NCBI RefSeq assembly: GCF_030160075.1
Contig: NZ_BSNQ01000003.1
Span: 1,120,556-1,184,555, forward strand
Length of the DNA stretch: 64,000 nucleotides
Source of the DNA: Dyella lipolytica
GTDB lineage: Bacteria; Pseudomonadota; Gammaproteobacteria; Xanthomonadales; Rhodanobacteraceae
Direction of reading: 5' to 3'
Shown: piece by piece, positions 51,885-59,970 of the stretch
Layout: each line of letters opens with the position of its first letter
How positions within the stretch are numbered: position 1 is the first letter of the stretch
Program-made: the position numbers and the translations under genes
The notes under the pieces: model-generated
Databases searched by the model: none
Told to the model about the DNA's origin: nothing
The model's input: the letters and a program-made list of their open reading frames with translations, nothing else

Positions 51885-52206
51885 TGCGGCCCTTCCCGGC
51901 GGTATTTCTGAAATTGATTTGGCGACGTAGGGGGTTACCGGTCCTCGCGCCAATTTGTCACGATCTAAATGACGGCACAAGTACGCCTGGGCGCGGCGTC
52001 ACAAGGCGAAGAGAACGGCTTCGAAACGGTGCTGCGAGATCGGAGCACTGCCTAGCGGTCGCAAAAATTCGAATGGATGCGACATGGTTTTTGTATTGAT
52101 TCACACATAGCGCTGGGGCCACCAAGTATCACCAGGCGCCAACCATTTGCGCTTTTTTTGAACGCCTTCTTTTGCAGGTGCAGCACACGATAATCCAAGG
52201 AAAAAC
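51885..52206. other. Intergenic, no feature recognised
   Basis: 322 bp between the desaturase-family start and the receptor regulatory region. No ORF, terminator or repeat is supported. The desaturase promoter should be here. Confidence 0.6.
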
Positions 52207-52313
52207 TTGGATCGATCCAATACTCTTGCTGTCATGCAATATCCATTTTCGACGAATTACTTGTACATCAACGGGATACATTTAGAAAATTTAAATTTAA
52301 ATCGATACAAATT
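52207..52313. promoter_or_regulatory. Pair of ATCGAT-centred palindromes upstream of the receptor
   Basis: Site 1 is the perfect palindrome TTGGATCGATCCAA (52207-52220). Site 2 is TTTAAATCGATACAAATT (52296-52313), 4 bp before the -35 box. Their centres are 90 bp apart, as in the copy before the GH18-like gene. A third, weaker ATCGAT (52388-52405) lies in the leader. CG-centred palindromes of this kind are typical of LacI-family operators; the regulator is not in the window. Confidence 0.62.
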
Positions 52314-52317
52314 CCTG

Positions 52318-52346
52318 TTGACATCGTCTTTTTACTGTCCTATTGA
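52318..52346 (+). promoter_or_regulatory. Sigma-70-type promoter of the TonB-dependent receptor
   Basis: Consensus TTGACA (52318-52323), 17-bp spacer, TATTGA (52341-52346). The same layout occurs in the homologous region before the GH18-like gene (TTGACA-N17-TATTCA). Predicted start near 52353. Confidence 0.75.
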
Positions 52347-52352
52347 TTAGCC

Positions 52353-52607
52353 CGCTCGCGGCATTCGGTACAACGTTGTCACGAGAATTTGGATCGATTG
52401 AAAAATAAACATCCAGAAGGACTCTGGGGCCGAGTGGCGAGGCGGTTATCCCGCCTGCAGCACACGTTAGTGTTTGGGACGGTTGCGCATCTTTGAAGAG
52501 CAGTGACGGAGGGTCATGGAAATAACCATGGCTCAGGGTGGGTTTGTGCCCTCAAAAAGCATCGCGGACGTGGGCACAGCAAACAAACCGAAAAGGTAGG
52601 GGAGCAA
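52353..52607 (+). ncRNA. Structured 5' leader RNA of the receptor gene, copy 1
   Basis: About 255-nt untranslated leader, homologous to the leader at 57725-57987. Shared hairpins: AGGCGG-TTATC-CCGCCT (52440-52456), CATGG-AAATAA-CCATG (52515-52530), and AGGG/CCCT (52535-52538 with 52549-52552) around GTTTGTG. In the CATGG hairpin the stem is kept while the loop changes between copies, as expected for RNA structure. It fits none of the riboswitch classes I know. Could be a riboswitch, an RNA-binding-protein target or an mRNA-stability element. Confidence 0.55.
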
Positions 52608-55600
52608 ATGAGCAAGTACCAGTTTCGTTTGGGCAGCAGCTTGCGAGCCAGCATACGCATTGGCCTATGGGCTGCTGCGATGACCAGCAGCGCAGCGTTT
52701 GCGCAGAGCATCACCGGTGGTGTTTACGGCAATTTGCCTGGAGGCAAAGACGTTGCCGCCGAAGTCACCAACCCGTCGACGGGCTACGACAGTACCGTGC
52801 ATGCCGATGCCAATGGCCACTACGAGGTCACTGGATTGATGCCCGGCACTTACGTCGTAAAGATGCTGCGCGATGGCAACGTGGTCGATCAGCGCAGTGT
52901 GGTGGTGGTTGCGGGCTCCAACAGTCCGGCGATATTCGAAGCGTCGGCCGCAGTGAATGCGAAGGAATTGAATTCGGTCACCGTCACTGCCAGTCAACCG
53001 ACGGTCAACGCGATCGACGTCACGACGAGCCAGCAGATCCAGACCTGGGATTCGACGGAAATCAATCGGCTGCCGTTGATCAATCCGGATCTTCTCGCTG
53101 TCGCCTCGATGCAGTCGAACGTGGCCAGCATCACCAGTTCGCACGGCAATGCGCCGCAGTTCAACGGCGCGTCGGGCACCGAGAACCGGTACTTCCTCAA
53201 CGAATTCAACGTCACCGATATGCAGCAGGGTGCGGTGCCGGACAAGATCCCGAACGAAGCCCTTGCCACCGTCTCCACCATCGACGGTGGTATGGATGCC
53301 AAGTACGGCAGCGCCATGGGCGGCGTCGTTGCCGGCACGATCAAGCAAGGCTCCAATGACTTCAAGGCCGGTGTGGATTTAGCGTTCACGCCCGCCACGG
53401 GCACGCTCAATGAAAATCCCAGGAACACGTACAACTACAACGGCCAGCTGACCAACGCCTACCAGTTGAACCACTGGTCGCCGAGCCTGTTGCAGGACTA
53501 TTGGGCATCGGGCTCGATCATCAAGGACAAGCTGTTCTACTACGTGCTCGCCGAAATCCAGCCGAACAACTATGGCCAGGGTGTGCAGGGCGTCAACCCG
53601 ACCACGACCTACAACTCCAGCAACAAGACCCTCAACGAAAACCGCAACAAGCAGTTCCTCGGTAACTTCACGTGGAATATCGCCAACGGTCATACGTTGA
53701 ACATCTTCATCGACCGTCAGAGCAACCTCCAGACGCAATCGCAGTATGCGCTATCGACGCCGTATGAACCCTCCAGCGCGGCCTCCGCACTGGACAACTG
53801 GAGTGGCAACGCTTGGCACGATACCTTGGCAGTGGCCAACTACCACGGCCAGATCACCGATACGCTGTCCGTCTCGGCGATGGCGGGTACCTCGCAGCAG
53901 TACTTCAACTCGTATTACCAGTACGGCATCGACGTTCCGTACATCCAGAACTACAACCCGGACACGAAGCAGTACTCGCAGGCGCCCGGCAACGGTACCA
54001 GCAGCCTGTATTACCTGAAGTACCGCATGATGGGTGCGCGCCTCGACTTCACCTGGAACGTGACCGACGACCACGAAGTGACCTTCGGTGGAGAGCGTTA
54101 CAGCCCGACCATGTCGCAGGCCAATATCCCGAACCCGAACTCATGGACCTACAGCTACTGCAGCACGGCACTGGGGCCGACTGAACCCTGCACCATCAAC
54201 GGCCAATCCGTCGCACCGGGATCGAAGTACGTCCAGTTGTCCTATGCGCCGCGTATCTACTACAACAGCTCGCCCACCTATGGCTTCTATCTGGGCGATA
54301 GCTGGCATTTTGCGCAGAACTGGACCCTCTATGCCGGCGGGCGTTACGACAATTACGCCATGACCGACAACATCAACGAAAAGATGTACAGCAAGGGCAA
54401 CTTCCTGCCTCGCGTTGGCGTGGCATGGGACGTCCATGGCGATTCGACGCTGAAGATCGGTGCCACCGCGGGCGAGTACTCCGAAGGCATTCCGCTTTAC
54501 TTCAATGCTTACGGCGGCACACCGGGTCAGGGCTACATCCACACCACCACCACCTACACCTATACCGGCGTGGGAGCCAACGGCGTTCCGACCGGTCTAA
54601 CGCAAGTGGGTCCCGTGCAAGGCAGCGCCGGTAGCGGCCTGCATTACCTGACCGCCGGGCAGTTCATTTCGAGCACGGCACAAAACGCCAAGCTGAAGCA
54701 ATTCTCGATTTACGCGCAGCAAAAGATCGGTGACAGCTGGACTGCGGGCGCCACGTTCTTTACGAGCAAGCTAACGGGCTTGCCGAACATCTACAACAAC
54801 ATCGATCAGCTGAAGGCGTACCTCACCAACAAGGGCTACCCGAACGCGGTGTTCCTCGGCCAGTACCTGATCACGCCAGGCAAGGACATCAACATTCCGG
54901 TGCAGTTGAACGGCGCCAACAGCCCGCTCACGATGGTCGATTTCCCGAACAGCTACATCGGTTTCCCATCGCTGCGACGCAAGATCTATCAGCTCAGCCT
55001 GACGATGGATCACGCCTACTCCGAGGAAGAGCCGTACTACCTGAGCGCGTCCTACACATGGCGCCATGAGTTCGGCAACACCGACGGCACCACCAGCTAT
55101 GCCGGTGGCACCGGCAACACCGGCGCGACCGGCTATGACAGCGGGTTGAATGCTCCGGGCTTCCTGCAGGGTGCCGCAGGTAATCTGGGCGACGATATCC
55201 CGTCCACGGTGAAGGTGTTCGGTTATTACAAGTTCGCTCATCAGGACAATTTGTTGAAGGGTCTGCGGGTGGGTGGTGCACTCACGTACTACGCGGGTGG
55301 TCCGATCGATTGCAATTCCCAATATCCGAACAACGGAACCCTGGCGATCGGCAGCAACCAGCTCGGCAACAACAACGCGTATTACTGCAACACGTTGTCG
55401 AATGTGCTGGCCGGCCAATCTCCGATATCGAACACCATCAACTACACCCGCGGCAGCTACGGTCGCCTTCCGTCGTACAAGCAGGTGGACCTGGATGTTG
55501 GCTACGACTGGGCCTACGGCCCGAATGCCTTCTCGCTGGATTTGAAGGTGCTCAACCTGTTCAACAGCAACACCGTTACCTCGTTCGTCACCAACATCAG

Positions 55601-55697
55601 CAACGGCAACGGGCAGTTCAACCCCAATTTCATGCAGCCCAATACGTACCAGCAACCGCGTACTGGCGAACTGGTATTCCGCTGGCAGTTCCAATGA
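52608..55697 (+). CDS. TonB-dependent receptor, Oar-like, with carboxypeptidase-regulatory-like N-domain
   Basis: 1029 residues. A signal peptide (ending SSAAFAQ) is followed by a carboxypeptidase-regulatory-like beta domain (about 35-105: ITGGVYGNLPGGKDVAAEV to AGSNSPAIFEA). Then comes the plug (NRLPLINPDLLAVASMQSNV, NRYFLNEFNVTDMQQGAVP, IDGGMDAKYGSAMGGVVAGTIKQGSNDF) and a large 22-strand-type barrel ending GELVFRWQFQ. It imports a large substrate, probably glycan or peptide, across the outer membrane using TonB energy; specificity unknown. ATG 52608 has GGGGAG 5 nt upstream; the upstream frame to 52503 is leader. Followed by a terminator. Confidence 0.93.
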   Translation: MSKYQFRLGSSLRASIRIGLWAAAMTSSAAFAQSITGGVYGNLPGGKDVAAEVTNPSTGYDSTVHADANGHYEVTGLMPGTYVVKMLRDGNVVDQRSVVVVAGSNSPAIFEASAAVNAKELNSVTVTASQPTVNAIDVTTSQQIQTWDSTEINRLPLINPDLLAVASMQSNVASITSSHGNAPQFNGASGTENRYFLNEFNVTDMQQGAVPDKIPNEALATVSTIDGGMDAKYGSAMGGVVAGTIKQGSNDFKAGVDLAFTPATGTLNENPRNTYNYNGQLTNAYQLNHWSPSLLQDYWASGSIIKDKLFYYVLAEIQPNNYGQGVQGVNPTTTYNSSNKTLNENRNKQFLGNFTWNIANGHTLNIFIDRQSNLQTQSQYALSTPYEPSSAASALDNWSGNAWHDTLAVANYHGQITDTLSVSAMAGTSQQYFNSYYQYGIDVPYIQNYNPDTKQYSQAPGNGTSSLYYLKYRMMGARLDFTWNVTDDHEVTFGGERYSPTMSQANIPNPNSWTYSYCSTALGPTEPCTINGQSVAPGSKYVQLSYAPRIYYNSSPTYGFYLGDSWHFAQNWTLYAGGRYDNYAMTDNINEKMYSKGNFLPRVGVAWDVHGDSTLKIGATAGEYSEGIPLYFNAYGGTPGQGYIHTTTTYTYTGVGANGVPTGLTQVGPVQGSAGSGLHYLTAGQFISSTAQNAKLKQFSIYAQQKIGDSWTAGATFFTSKLTGLPNIYNNIDQLKAYLTNKGYPNAVFLGQYLITPGKDINIPVQLNGANSPLTMVDFPNSYIGFPSLRRKIYQLSLTMDHAYSEEEPYYLSASYTWRHEFGNTDGTTSYAGGTGNTGATGYDSGLNAPGFLQGAAGNLGDDIPSTVKVFGYYKFAHQDNLLKGLRVGGALTYYAGGPIDCNSQYPNNGTLAIGSNQLGNNNAYYCNTLSNVLAGQSPISNTINYTRGSYGRLPSYKQVDLDVGYDWAYGPNAFSLDLKVLNLFNSNTVTSFVTNISNGNGQFNPNFMQPNTYQQPRTGELVFRWQFQ

Positions 55698-55726
55698 TGG
55701 TTTGACGCTGTACTCGCGTTAACATC

Positions 55727-55764
55727 GATGCCTCCATGTCCCGGACATGGGGGCATCTTTGTTT
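55727..55764 (+). terminator. Terminator of the receptor gene
   Basis: 13-bp stem (55727-55739 with 55745-55757, one G-U pair, loop CCCGG) followed by TTTGTTTA. It separates the receptor from the sulfotransferase gene. Confidence 0.85.
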
Positions 55765-55808
55765 AGATGGGCAGATTGTATGCAAGCGCAACGCGTTCGG
55801 AGGCGAAT

Positions 55809-57377
55809 TTGAATCCGTTATTGCAAGGCCTGGAGCCCGTTGCGGCGAATCGCGTCATGGCAGCGGCACAGGCATTGGAGATGCATCGCCCCGATCAGGC
55901 GGCTGGCCAATTGGCGCCCGTGTTGAGTAGCTATCCGGATCATCCCGAAGTTTTGCGTTTGCATGCGAGCTTGCTGAGCATGCGCGGGGAACACCGCGCG
56001 GCTTTGCGCGACATGCATCGTGCGCTGGAGCAACGCCCGCAGGAGGCGATGTACCACAACGCGTTTGCGATCTTCCTGGCGGAGGCGGGCGAACTCGATC
56101 AGGCGATCGAGTGTTTGCGTCGAGCCTGCGAACTTCAGCCGGGCTTTGTCATGGCCTGGTACAACCTCGGCCTATTCTTGACGCGTAGCGCGCGCTTTGA
56201 CGAAGCGAGAAACGCGCTACGCCGTGCCGTCACCTTGGCACCGGACTATGCGGCCGCGCGCGCGCAACTCGCCGACTTGCTGCGCATGGACAATTTCCGC
56301 GACGAAGCCATCGCCGAATATCGAAAGCTGCTCGCGGAGCAACCGTGGGCCGGCATGGCGTGGTGGGGTCTGGCGGAAATCAAAACGCTGCGCCTGGACA
56401 CGAGCGATAGCGACGCCATCCAACGCGCACTCGCGCATCCACGCGCCAACGACGGCGACCGCATTGCGATGGGTTTCGCCTTGGCCAAGGCGCTGGACGA
56501 TCAAGGCCGTTACGCCGAATCCCTGCAGGCGTTGGCTGCTGCGAACGAAATCGCCCGGAGGCACAGGACCTGGAATGCTGCGGCAGTGGCCACAACGATC
56601 GACGCGATCCGATCCGCGACCTGCACCGCCGACGCCGGGCAAGACCTCGGCTCGGAAGTGATTTTCATCGTGGGCATGCCGCGTTCGGGATCGACGTTGA
56701 TCGAACAAATTCTTGCATCGCATTCCAGCGTCGAGGGTGCCGCCGAGTTGACCGACCTGCCCTTGCTCATTGCCGAAGAGTCGAACAGGCGCAAAAAATC
56801 GTATCCAGCATGGCTTGCGGACATGAGCGCGATGGATTGGCGGCAACTGGGGCAGCGTTATCTGGAACGAACCGCGCGCTGGCGCAAGAGCCGTCCGATG
56901 TTTACCGACAAGTTGCCCAATAATTGGATGCACATCGGCATGATTCGAGCGATGCTGCCGGGAGCGCGCATCGTCATCAGTCGTCGCGATGCACTCGAAA
57001 CCTGTTTCTCGTGTTACCGGCAGTACTTTCCCGGCAACGACTACACGCGCACGTTTTCCGATCTGGCCTCGTACTGGCGGAGCTTCGATGCTGCGGCGAG
57101 TTATTGGGCACAGAAAGACCATGTGCGCGTTTATCAGCACGTGTACGAGGATTTGCTCAAAGATCCCGAAACGAAAATTCGCGAATTGCTTGCGTTCTGC
57201 GGCTTGCCATTCGAGGAAACATGTTTGCGATTCAACGAAACGCAGCGCGCCATCGGCACACCGAGTGCCATGCAAGTGCGGGAACCGCTGCGCGCCGACA
57301 CGGCACGCGGGCCACGCTACGGCAATTTGTTGAATCCGTTGCGTCAGGCACTTGGTCTTCCTGCGATGGATCATTGA
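55809..57377 (+). CDS. TPR-repeat sulfotransferase
   Basis: 522 residues. The N-terminal half (about 15-250) is a row of tetratricopeptide repeats (for example AMYHNAFAIFLAEAGELDQAI, MAWYNLGLFLTRSARFDEARN). The C-terminal half is a sulfotransferase with the 5'-phosphosulfate loop IFIVGMPRSGSTLIEQ (PRSGST at 291-296) and the 3'-phosphate motif in ARIVISRRDALETCFSCY. No signal peptide, so cytosolic. TTG 55809 is preferred because GGAGG precedes it by 5-6 nt; ATG 55767 is in frame but has no site and overlaps the terminator region. In Xanthomonadales and Caulobacterales such proteins often follow TonB receptors. Acceptor unknown. Confidence 0.87.
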   Translation: MNPLLQGLEPVAANRVMAAAQALEMHRPDQAAGQLAPVLSSYPDHPEVLRLHASLLSMRGEHRAALRDMHRALEQRPQEAMYHNAFAIFLAEAGELDQAIECLRRACELQPGFVMAWYNLGLFLTRSARFDEARNALRRAVTLAPDYAAARAQLADLLRMDNFRDEAIAEYRKLLAEQPWAGMAWWGLAEIKTLRLDTSDSDAIQRALAHPRANDGDRIAMGFALAKALDDQGRYAESLQALAAANEIARRHRTWNAAAVATTIDAIRSATCTADAGQDLGSEVIFIVGMPRSGSTLIEQILASHSSVEGAAELTDLPLLIAEESNRRKKSYPAWLADMSAMDWRQLGQRYLERTARWRKSRPMFTDKLPNNWMHIGMIRAMLPGARIVISRRDALETCFSCYRQYFPGNDYTRTFSDLASYWRSFDAAASYWAQKDHVRVYQHVYEDLLKDPETKIRELLAFCGLPFEETCLRFNETQRAIGTPSAMQVREPLRADTARGPRYGNLLNPLRQALGLPAMDH

Positions 57378-57578
57378 GATCTGCATAAACCGAAATAGCT
57401 CGCGGTGACGCAGCTCTTGGGTTACTGCGCGCATGAAACGCCCCGGCGATTTCAGCACGCGTTAGTGGGCCTCCGCGGACGTCTCTATACCCTGCCCCTG
57501 GTGCGAGTGTTTGTGCTTGTAGAACTGGGTTTATTTGTCGATTTTTTGCGGGTGCAAAACCCGTAAGTCCGTGATTAA
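57378..57578. other. Intergenic, no feature recognised
   Basis: 201 bp after the sulfotransferase stop. No clear terminator with a T-run; one small hairpin (57549-57563) has no obvious role. The stretch upstream of the GH18-like regulatory region is otherwise featureless. Confidence 0.5.
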
Positions 57579-57686
57579 TTAGATCGATCCAATTGTTTTG
57601 CTGTTACGCAACAGCGTCATCACAAGAATTTCATTCACATCAATAAGATACATTTAGAAAATCTAAATTTGAATCGATACAAATTT
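57579..57686. promoter_or_regulatory. Pair of ATCGAT-centred sites upstream of the GH18-like gene
   Basis: Site 1 TTAGATCGATCCAATT (57579-57594) and site 2 TTTGAATCGATACAAATTT (57668-57686), centres 90 bp apart and in the same position relative to the promoter as the sites before the TonB receptor. Between them lies the identical run GATACATTTAGAAAAT (57647-57662, 52275-52290). Probably bound by the same LacI-type regulator. Confidence 0.6.
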
Positions 57687-57689
57687 CAT

Positions 57690-57718
57690 TTGACATAGCC
57701 TTTTTAGTGCCCTATTCA
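57690..57718 (+). promoter_or_regulatory. Sigma-70-type promoter of the GH18-like gene
   Basis: TTGACA (57690-57695), 17-bp spacer, TATTCA (57713-57718). Same architecture as the receptor promoter. Predicted start near 57725. Confidence 0.73.
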
Positions 57719-57724
57719 TTAGCC

Positions 57725-57987
57725 ACTGGCGACCTTCGGTCCAAGGTATTCATGAAAATTGGGACCGATTGAAAAATCGGTTCCCGAAGGACTCTGGGGA
57801 CGGCGTGGCGAGGCGGTTATCCGCCTGCAGCATGCGCCGGTAGTTGGGTCAGTTTGCGTATCTCTGAAAGCAGCATCGAAGGGGCATGGCAGCAGCCATG
57901 GCTCTGGGTAAGTTTGTGCCCTTAAAAAGCATCACGCATATGGCACTCCGCGCGTTTTCGTCCCATTGACTCTTGGAGAGCGTGTCC
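57725..57987 (+). ncRNA. Structured 5' leader RNA of the GH18-like gene, copy 2
   Basis: Leader of about 260 nt, homologous to 52353-52607. Hairpins: CCGATT-GAAA-AATCGG (57765-57780) inside GGGA/TCCC; AGGCGG-TTAT-CCGCCT (57811-57826); CATGG-CAGCAG-CCATG (57885-57900); GGG/CCC (57906-57908 with 57919-57921) around GTTTGTG. Runs shared with copy 1 include GAAGGACTCTGGGG and TGGCGAGGCGGTTATC. The 3' 50 nt are unrelated to copy 1, which marks the edge of the conserved leader. Confidence 0.55.
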
Positions 57988-59970
57988 ATGAAGCATACGA
58001 AGGTTCGGTGTTCACGGTTTCATCGCAAGTCGACACTACTACTTTTTGTTTCGGCGCTCGCATTCGGGTGTGGAAGCGTGAGTGCTCAAACCACGGGCTA
58101 CACCGGCATCTATGGTGGCGGCCCGTTGTACAAGCACGTAACGAGCAATATCTCTGAGATCGAGAACTCCGGTTTCACTGAAGTGATCGTGTGGAGCGTC
58201 GAGGTGAATTCCGCTGGCGACCTCAACCTCAACGGTGAATTCCCGTTGACGTCCGGCGGCACGTATGTGGGCAACAACACATGGCCGTCGTTCGCGGCCG
58301 ATCTGGTGACCATGAAGCAGGGAACGCCCAAGCGCATCACCCTCAGCATCGGTTCGTCGAACGTGGGTGATTTCCAGGACATCAAGGCTTTGGTCAATTC
58401 GCAAGGTACGGGATCGACCAGCATCCTCTACAAGGATTTCCAGGCGCTGAAGGCTGCGTTGCCATCCATCGATGCGATCGATTTCGATGACGAGAACAGC
58501 TACGACGCGGCGTCGACCGAGGCGTTTGCGGTGATGCTGGGCAACCTCGGCTATCACGTGACGATATCCCCGTACACCAACGCCTCGTATTGGACGTCGG
58601 TCGTTTCGCAGATCAATAGCACGCTTCCCGGTACGGTCGACGGCGTCCATCTGCAGACCTACTCGGGTGGCGCAGGCAACAGTCCGTGCTCGGGCTGGAG
58701 TTTCGGATCGGTGCCTGTTTATCCCGGCGTTTGGGATAGCAGCGACACGCCTCCGCAAGCGCAAAGCCAGATGAGCAGCTGGCACTCTCAGTGCAGCATC
58801 ACCGGCGGTTTCCTGTGGTTGTACGACGACATCGTCGGCAAGACGTACAACGGCGGAAACGAAACGGCAGCCTACGCCAGCGCCATCAATAACGGCGTGG
58901 GAGGAAGCACGACGACAACCGGGGTGTATGGCGTCTACACCGATGGAACGTCGTTCACCACCGGCGGCCTGGATGGCAACGGTTACGCCTACTCTGCCAA
59001 CCTGCTCGGCAGCTCGCAGACATGGAATGGCGATACCTTCAGCTTCGGTGCGGCCAACACCGCTAATGCCTTGAGCGGCGGCACCATCACGCCTACCCAA
59101 GGGCAGTACAGCGAATTGAGCCTGCTTGCGACCGGCCTCAATGGTGGCCAGGCAGCGCAGACTTTCATGGTCGACTACACCGATGGCAGCAGCACTGTCA
59201 TTAGCCAAAGCATGAGCGATTGGTTCAGTCCGCAAAGCTATCCAGGCGAATCGAACGCCGTCACGATGGCGTATCGCGACACCAGCAGCGGCGGCAAGGA
59301 TAGCCGGACGTTCAACTTGTACGGCTACGCGTTTCCGATCGACAGCACCAAGACGGTCAAGAGCATCGCGCTGCCGAACAACCGCAACGTGGTGGTGCTT
59401 TCTTATGTGTTGAGCAACCCGACCATCAATGCGTCGCCGGTAAGTCTCGCATCGGCCTTCAACCGCACCGCCATCTACAACGACGGAGCCACCTTCTCGT
59501 CCACCGGCGGCGTGGATGGCGTGGGCGATGCGTATTCGGCACAGTTGCTGGGATCGTCGCTGGAATACAACGACGTGCTGTATCACTTCGGCAGCGCCAA
59601 TGCCGCCAACGACGTCAGCGCGTCGGGACAGACGATCACCTTACCATCGGGTCAGTTCTCCGGGCTGCAATTGCTGGCAGCCGCCATGAACGGAAGCCAG
59701 ACCTCGCAAACCTTCACCGTCACCTACACCGACGGCACGCAGTCGACCTTTACCCAAAGCATCAGCGACTGGTTCAGTCCGCAGAGCTATGCCGGCGAAT
59801 TGCAGGCCGCCGTAGAGCCCTACCGCGATACCTACAGCGGTGGACGCGATAGCCGCAGCTTCTATCTCTACAACTACAAATTCAACTTGAACAACGCGAA
59901 GACGGTGAAAAGCATCAAGCTGCCGAGCAACACAAATGTGCAGATCATGGCCATGACGCTAATTCAGTAA
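57988..59970 (+). CDS. Secreted GH18-like protein with two C-terminal repeat domains
   Basis: 660 residues with a signal peptide (LLLFVSALAFGCGSVSAQ). The N-terminal domain (about 35-300) contains DAIDFDDE (D162, D165, D167, E169), fitting the GH18 DxxDxDxE catalytic motif of chitinases and endo-N-acetylglucosaminidases, within a barrel-like context. Two tandem domains follow (about 308-480 and 487-660) sharing YTDG...SQSMSDWFSPQSY, YRDTSSGGKDSRTF and KTVKSIALPNNRNV; they resemble beta-sandwich domains of secreted glycan-active proteins and probably bind carbohydrate. Glycosidase activity is inferred. ATG 57988 has GGAGAG upstream. It shares its leader with the TonB receptor gene. Confidence 0.8.
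   Translation: MKHTKVRCSRFHRKSTLLLFVSALAFGCGSVSAQTTGYTGIYGGGPLYKHVTSNISEIENSGFTEVIVWSVEVNSAGDLNLNGEFPLTSGGTYVGNNTWPSFAADLVTMKQGTPKRITLSIGSSNVGDFQDIKALVNSQGTGSTSILYKDFQALKAALPSIDAIDFDDENSYDAASTEAFAVMLGNLGYHVTISPYTNASYWTSVVSQINSTLPGTVDGVHLQTYSGGAGNSPCSGWSFGSVPVYPGVWDSSDTPPQAQSQMSSWHSQCSITGGFLWLYDDIVGKTYNGGNETAAYASAINNGVGGSTTTTGVYGVYTDGTSFTTGGLDGNGYAYSANLLGSSQTWNGDTFSFGAANTANALSGGTITPTQGQYSELSLLATGLNGGQAAQTFMVDYTDGSSTVISQSMSDWFSPQSYPGESNAVTMAYRDTSSGGKDSRTFNLYGYAFPIDSTKTVKSIALPNNRNVVVLSYVLSNPTINASPVSLASAFNRTAIYNDGATFSSTGGVDGVGDAYSAQLLGSSLEYNDVLYHFGSANAANDVSASGQTITLPSGQFSGLQLLAAAMNGSQTSQTFTVTYTDGTQSTFTQSISDWFSPQSYAGELQAAVEPYRDTYSGGRDSRSFYLYNYKFNLNNAKTVKSIKLPSNTNVQIMAMTLIQ

Follow-up and report, generated by a model that had tools for sequence, protein, structure and literature searches.

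Why should two genes with unrelated coding sequences carry closely related 5′ leaders? The question is raised by a 64,000-nucleotide stretch of the Dyella lipolytica genome (GCF_030160075.1, contig NZ_BSNQ01000003.1, positions 1,120,556 to 1,184,555; hereafter the window), in which an Oar-like TonB-dependent receptor and a secreted GH18-like protein are each preceded by such a leader. An earlier note on this DNA ascribed the likeness to selection on RNA structure and proposed a cis-regulatory RNA that couples uptake and degradation. Here we find that the blocks most clearly under purifying selection, as judged from sequence comparison, are DNA, namely the promoter and its palindromic operators, and that the joint on/off control of both genes in these soil bacteria is most likely exerted at the DNA, through repressor sites belonging to a gene network for mannose glycans. 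The RNA fold is real and lineage-specific, and it is probably kept by weak selection. The two genes are:

52608..55697, + strand: Oar-like TonB-dependent receptor, 1029 aa (OMP_b-brl_4 above the cut-off, CarboxypepD_reg below it)
57988..59970, + strand: secreted GH18-like protein, 660 aa (DxxDxDxE motif at residues 162-169)

The homology of the leaders (52353-52607 and 57725-57987), as claimed in the earlier note, is borne out by an alignment at 78% over 212 nt (E 1.8e-37). Both contain the identical runs GAAGGACTCTGGGG and TGGCGAGGCGGTTATC, and two of the hairpins described there are present as stated, CATGG/CCATG with the same stem and differing six-base loops, and AGGCGG/CCGCCT with a loop of five bases in one leader and four in the other. 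Allowing up to two mismatches, GGCGAGGCGGTTATC occurs in the window at just these two places, a result equalled in 2 of 100 shuffles. The extent proposed for the homology has to be revised: it does not start at 52353/57725 but about 180 bp further upstream, takes in a sigma-70-type promoter and dwindles ahead of the start codons (in blast, 52170-52566 aligns with 57544-57936). These are the only clear copies in this genome, in which three weaker matches (E 0.04-0.9) were also seen; the one that was read lies inside a response-regulator gene.

Across the genus, the leader query matches 10 of 16 Dyella genomes, and a covariance model built from 15 sequences recovers the same 15 Dyella copies together with two in a Rhodanobacter clade (72.8 and 60.7 bits) among 233 genomes of the family, so that the search for more Rhodanobacteraceae copies suggested in the earlier note does yield them. 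In 398 genomes of the order the model found no further credible copy; these large runs scored 7-12 candidates per genome, and distant weak copies could escape. The 15 weak model matches (E 3e-4 to 1) fall mostly in coding-like frames of at least 200 codons (11 of 15, by frame and composition), including three that are thiG-like by translation (L055, L064 and L070) and one that is HlyD-like (L063). Left out of the alignments were these weak matches, the other four being L067, L069, L071 and L073, as well as L003-L005 and the short DNA matches L012-L014 (24-27 nt). All 17 copies, at most two full ones per genome, lie upstream of and co-oriented with an Oar-type receptor gene (11) or a GH18-like gene (6) of one conserved locus. 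Given the further copies and the retention of helices described below, duplication of a fragment within a single genome is too little to account for the leaders.

A protein search of the genome contigs with the receptor gave nine loci. At three of the loci examined (L079-L081, three species) a GH18-like gene follows and no leader was found there. The motif ATGTATCGCAAG(A/G)G occurs after the GH18-like-gene leaders of D. psychrodurans and D. monticola and after the leader of genome G125, and matches the start of Rhodanobacter receptor genes. Because several copies retain such a receptor-type start remnant (ATGTATCGCAAGAG), the module of the downstream gene appears to have arisen by duplication; the second leader probably came with a duplicated receptor gene that has since been lost. 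The structured core of the G125 leader stops some 365 nt short of oar, and between leader and oar lies a 63-codon open frame with the receptor-type start ATGTATCGCAAGAG (L024 4029-4220), a probable remnant.

The shared promoter region contains the following elements in the two window copies:

52207..52220, no strand: operator O1, receptor copy, TTGGATCGATCCAA, perfect palindrome
52297..52310, no strand: operator O2, receptor copy, TTAAATCGATACAA, one mismatch, 90 bp downstream of O1 and just upstream of the −35 element
52318..52346, + strand: sigma-70-type promoter, receptor copy, TTGACA, 17 bp, TATTGA, predicted start near 52353
52389..52402, no strand: operator O3, receptor copy, TTGGATCGATTGAA, in the transcribed leader, 92 bp from O2
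57579..57592, no strand: operator O1, GH18-like copy, TTAGATCGATCCAA
57669..57682, no strand: operator O2, GH18-like copy, TTGAATCGATACAA, one mismatch
57690..57718, + strand: promoter, GH18-like copy, TTGACA-17-TATTCA, predicted start near 57725
57760..57773, no strand: operator O3, GH18-like copy, TGGGACCGATTGAA, degenerate, 2 mismatches

The putative operators follow one pattern, a palindrome with a central CG, TTNRATCGATYNAA. TTGACA is present in all 15 aligned Dyella copies, and the −10 element reads TATTGAT, TAATGAT or TATTCAT in 14 of them and CCATGAT in the other (G115a); a consensus promoter scanner missed the promoter at 52318..52346 because its rule demands a T at the last −10 position. 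Spacing is held closely. The O2-O3 distance, which spans the promoter, is 91-93 bp in 15/15 Dyella copies and 78-79 in the two Rhodanobacter copies, while the O1-O2 distance is 88-91 bp in 11 Dyella copies, 79-80 in two and 67 in two, steps of about one or two helical turns (O2 was sought within 30 bp of the −35 only). Among eight receptor copies, 52297-52350 is more conserved than fourfold-degenerate (4-fold) sites in 28/28 pairs, and mean identity is 81.5% from O2 to the −10 and 84.8% in O3, compared with 67.8% at 4-fold sites. At O3, where the earlier note had seen a hairpin near 52389/57761, a strong RNA hairpin (GGGACCGATT/AATCGGTTCCC) is indeed possible in the second window copy, whose palindrome is degenerate, but the site itself is the DNA palindrome TTGGATCGATTGAA, and the palindrome is kept where the stretch hardly folds as RNA (no fold in G080b, a weak one in G051 and G145). 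The three exact TTNRATCGATYNAA sites of this 4.05-Mb genome are all in these two promoters.

Beyond the leaders the pattern marks a wider set of genes. The 16 Dyella genomes contain 73 TTNRATCGATYNAA sites, 24 of them in leader promoters; of the 49 others, 41 were read, corresponding to 35 loci. At 19 or more of these 35 loci a GH92, GH76, GH2, TonB-receptor or GH18-like gene lies about 500 bp or less downstream of the site (gene calls by Pfam, two GH18-like paralogues by alignment). In D. nitratireducens (L023 7868-7210, minus strand) a third promoter with O2 and −35 precedes an unrelated leader and a 151-aa secreted protein. In D. mobilis (L086 2300-3560) oar and the GH18-like gene are divergent and a leader was found at the GH18-like gene only; oar there has two operator-like palindromes and no leader was found. 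The leader model gave no match at E up to 1 at the 35 loci or at the LacI gene discussed below. Since operator loci thus exist without the leader (the 35 loci, D. nitratireducens and D. mobilis), shared regulation does not need the RNA, and shared operators explain the joint control of uptake and degradation better than the coupling RNA first proposed.

As to the regulator, the genome has five LacI-type genes, and only the one at locus L141 has pattern sites upstream. Here TTGGATCGTTCTAA and TTGGATCGTTCCAA, each with one mismatch and 90 bp apart, lie between a LacI-family gene and a GH92 gene that it faces (L141 1345-1448); if the GH92 frame is read at its longest, one of them falls inside it, ahead of the next ATG. 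A fucP/NagP-like transporter gene follows the LacI gene. Of the other four LacI genes, one (L140) carries a two-mismatch site at the 3′ end and three have none. The L141 gene (G000:C3:2247489-2248538) is, from these sites and neighbours, the best candidate for the repressor. Nine Dyella genomes encode a conserved protein of 1115-1132 aa whose gene is preceded, at 17-72 bp, by one operator and often has an MFS-like gene as its neighbour (L109-L111, L116, L118, L122, L133, L135 and L136; GH92 by Pfam in the seven scanned).

The transcribed part of the module contains these predicted RNA elements:

52413..52427, + strand: RNA hairpin P0, AGGAC loop (CCAGA/TCTGG)
52430..52469, + strand: RNA helices P1/P2 (AGGCGG/CCGCCT), outer P1 weak in the receptor copy
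52511..52534, + strand: RNA hairpin P4 (GGGTCATGG/CCATGGCTC)
52535..52552, + strand: RNA hairpin P5 (AGGG/CCCT), GGTTTGTG-type loop, then AAAAA
57802..57839, + strand: RNA helices P1/P2, second leader
57881..57904, + strand: RNA hairpin P4, second leader
57906..57921, + strand: RNA hairpin P5, second leader

Four hairpin elements recur across the leader copies. Compared with shuffles, the folding stability of the whole leaders is unremarkable (z −0.95 and −1.15) and P1-P5 is slightly stable (z −1.53 and −1.60), whereas the P4-P5 part by itself is clearly more so (z −3.05 and −2.28). Of the helix cells in the 15 Dyella copies, 87.8% are paired, compared with 72-80% in neutral simulations along the tree from an inferred ancestor, and this level was reached by 0, 0, 0, 0, 2 and 0 of 150 simulations in six settings. 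The paired share is 86.4% in the model-fitted alignment and 34-47% in its slid versions, which served as controls. RNAalifold on a MAFFT alignment, the less biased test, gave an energy that beats flat-rate simulations (0/60 in three settings). P4 and P5 exceed 4-fold identity in 21 and 22 of the 28 receptor-copy pairs, and the linker is also somewhat slower; the stretch before P1 is the least conserved part (47.3%). Some further pairings were set aside: a fifth helix between P2 and P4 had many mismatches and was kept out of the counts, and neither pairing of the P5 3′ strand with the ribosome-binding site nor a pseudoknot of the P5 loop with a downstream CAAAC stretch is kept across copies (alignment, by eye). 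The structural selection proposed in the earlier note stands in so far as helices are retained above neutral simulation, but no significant covariation was seen and the core changes at roughly the 4-fold rate.

Taken as a whole, the best explanation, which we place just on the probable side, is an old promoter module with a repressor layer in DNA and a post-transcriptional layer in RNA. Each leader would be the transcribed part of this module. A LacI-family repressor, probably G000:C3:2247489-2248538 beside the GH92 alpha-mannosidase gene, would bind O1, O2 and O3 and form a loop spanning the sigma-70 promoter. Set free by an inducer derived from mannose-rich glycans, it would allow the Oar-type receptor, the GH18-like secreted protein (a possible N-glycan endoglycosidase) and alpha-mannosidases to be expressed at the same time. 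GlcNAc may act as a further signal through a second, NagR-like site at +16 to +29. The RNA beyond O3 would fold into P0, P1/P2, P4 and P5 and modulate expression post-transcriptionally. Its most plausible role would be that of a stability or translation element, recognised in trans at the 5′ hairpin with its GGA/GGGG motifs by CsrA/RsmA or by an sX13-like C-rich small RNA (sRNA). A lineage-specific post-transcriptional RNA element of this kind is a plausible candidate. Homology, operator pattern, spacing, the neighbouring gene set and helix retention are there in the sequence; from them we infer the repressor's identity, looping, the inducer and any RNA function or partner. Only tentatively would we go further and propose a new, lineage-specific leader RNA class whose 5′ end doubles as a repressor operator, with a LacI-type repressor reading the DNA and a post-transcriptional factor reading the RNA; uptake of glycoprotein glycans in Dyella and a Rhodanobacter relative would then be under two-step control.

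Several results weigh against this two-layer explanation. On the DNA side, Markov models of orders 2-4 expect 1.1-1.9 exact sites per 4.05 Mb, so the three in this genome are unremarkable, and the 73 exact sites in ~75 Mb are two- to four-fold over that expectation; the reversed-pattern control (0 in this genome, 1 in 16 genomes) is biased low, as the reverse contains TAGCTA. What is surprising about the operator pattern is its clustering and register, not its exact count. For 16 of the 35 other loci no gene of the expected kinds was verified (three of these, L114, L118 and L135, look alike), and there is no GH92 among the seven window proteins scanned. On the RNA side, the helices were picked on the same alignment that was used to test them, and letter shuffles pair 85.8% as against the 86.4% seen (104/500). 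Pair covariation, which the earlier note had proposed to examine, is not significant, at the low power that 17 sequences give: two-sided changes are not above controls (9 pairs, 37/500 shuffles; 8 pairs, matched by 13-42 of 150 simulations). With per-site rates, the RNAalifold energy was reached by 0, 7 and 6 of 60 simulations at kappa 2, 4 and 6, where close pairs suggest a kappa of ~3.7. Identity of the RNA core is 67.6%, practically that of 4-fold sites (67.8%), and P1/P2 is at 61.4%. The drift, the non-significant covariation and the per-site-rate simulations, which are not clearly beaten, are also what would be expected if the leader RNA had no function of its own, the operator promoter having been duplicated before Dyella diversified and the RNA likeness being drifting common ancestry. 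We regard this as a possibility on the doubtful side. It fits the unrelated leader behind O2 and −35 in D. nitratireducens, the leaderless D. mobilis oar with operator-like sites, the operator-bearing GH18-like paralogues L112 and L123 and the 35 operator loci at which no leader matches at E up to 1. It does not readily account for helix pairing in excess of neutral simulation, for P4 and P5 being above 4-fold identity in most pairs, or for the full-length leader being kept in 17 copies from two genera.

Control in trans at GGA/GGGG motifs, whether by CsrA/RsmA or by an sX13-type C-rich sRNA, is conceivable, though we hold it to be slightly less probable still. The candidate motifs lie in the P0 loop, ahead of P1 and, in the receptor copy, in the ribosome-binding site AGGGGAG. 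A CsrA gene is present in the genome; GGA occurs in the P0 hairpin loop of 10/17 copies (shuffle mean 4.9, 5/300 as high, with related sequences treated as independent), and GGGG in 16/17 core sequences, 12 of them just before P1. C-rich loops of sX13 are reported to act on G-rich motifs near starts (PMC3771888). GC-rich leaders, however, often hold GGA or GGGG (GGA occurs in a mean of 15.3/17 shuffled P0 stretches), the stretch before P1 is the least conserved part, and the G-rich site before the start is found in receptor copies and is variable in others. The reading of the earlier note, a new riboswitch sensing a glycan-derived metabolite, is not supported and in our view very unlikely. A long structured leader does lie upstream of uptake and degradation genes and has no Rfam match, in line with the earlier remark that no known riboswitch class fits. 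But across 233 family and 398 order genomes, with 7-12 candidates scored in each, credible matches came from two genera and one locus only, and no aptamer core shared by distant taxa or different genes was seen. The core drifts rapidly without significant covariation, a scan of the leaders listed nothing terminator-like on their + strand, by eye no conserved pairing with the ribosome-binding site was seen, and genes of this set are found with operators but no leader RNA. Hardly credible at all is a transposable repeat (MITE or REP-like) that lies upstream of these genes by chance: the likeness of two copies spaced by 5.4 kb in a single genome might suggest it, but it was rejected on there being at most two full copies per genome, 17/17 of them upstream of oar or the GH18-like gene and co-oriented with it, the promoter and the operators keeping their register.

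In the LacI-family sugar operons lac (O1-O3) and gal (OE/OI), an operator lies within the transcribed sequence. As in these, several central-CG palindromic operators with phased spacing surround one promoter in Dyella, one of them in the transcript; the palindrome and the genes are different, and the operators here are putative. Among orphan cis-regulatory RNA candidates in Rfam, a structured 5′ leader with hairpins in fixed order is a shared feature, whereas the Dyella leader has no Rfam match and was found at one locus in two related genera. In the Rfam scan of the window only a tRNA was above the gathering threshold, and in E-value mode the first leader had no match and two matches far below threshold lay upstream of the second. 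The G-rich motifs of the 5′ region also recall the messenger RNA targets of sX13 in Xanthomonas (PMC3771888). In Bacteroides GH18 and GH92 enzymes act together on high-mannose N-glycans (PMC10154615), and the N-glycan loci there resemble the Dyella set in combining a secreted GH18 endoglycosidase, outer-membrane uptake and GH92 mannosidases. By this analogy the locus may take up N-glycan fragments, although the Dyella genes are scattered over the genome and joined by the operator, and GH18 identity in Dyella is a matter of the motif only.

NagR (LacI) regulons of Xanthomonas and other gammaproteobacteria include LacI-type control of TonB receptors for sugars (PMC5343134). The Dyella leaders would resemble them in that control and do so in a second candidate site, but the main Dyella operator is another motif, tied to GH92/GH76 genes. 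The second site in the window is:

52368..52381, no strand: near-palindrome, possible NagR-type site, GTACAACGTTGTCA, 2 mismatches from TGACAACGTTGTCA

GTACAACGTTGTCA or GTCCAACGTTGTCA, 2-3 mismatches from TGACAACGTTGTCA, is found downstream of the start in 10/15 Dyella leaders, and it may have a NagR role. TGACAACGTTGTCA is not enriched genome-wide (14 sites at up to two mismatches, compared with 16 in the control). Its three 1-mismatch sites adjoin genes of chitin/GlcNAc type. At L143 the neighbour encodes a protein with a chitin-binding module (CBM5/12), at L142 a similar one for which Pfam gave no match, and at L144 there is an MFS/glucokinase pair near another LacI gene.

What looked like an orphan RNA becomes largely a matter of DNA: in Dyella a LacI regulon for mannose-rich glycans probably unites scattered GH92, GH76, receptor and GH18-like genes. 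Homologous leaders, as this case also shows, call for a look at operators before they are taken for riboswitches. Were the RNA layer real, it would be a tractable case, with the leader kept at one regulon locus only and the leaderless members serving as natural controls. Among the matches listed in our literature search, open papers only, none dealt with the leader or the operator.

The GH18-like label of the earlier note is upheld in part: the catalytic motif, D162-x-x-D165-x-D167-x-E169, is invariant in 7/7 homologues, but the protein has no Pfam or NCBIfam match, and its domain model has a pLDDT of 52.8 (low confidence), with which Foldseek gave nothing at an E of 0.001 or below. One more gene, conserved in the locus, separates the two that bear leaders:

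55767..57377, + strand: TPR-sulfotransferase

Right after oar, at 55727-55757, is a strong terminator-like hairpin (14 pairs) with a T-rich tail, and the sulfotransferase gene may therefore have its own promoter.

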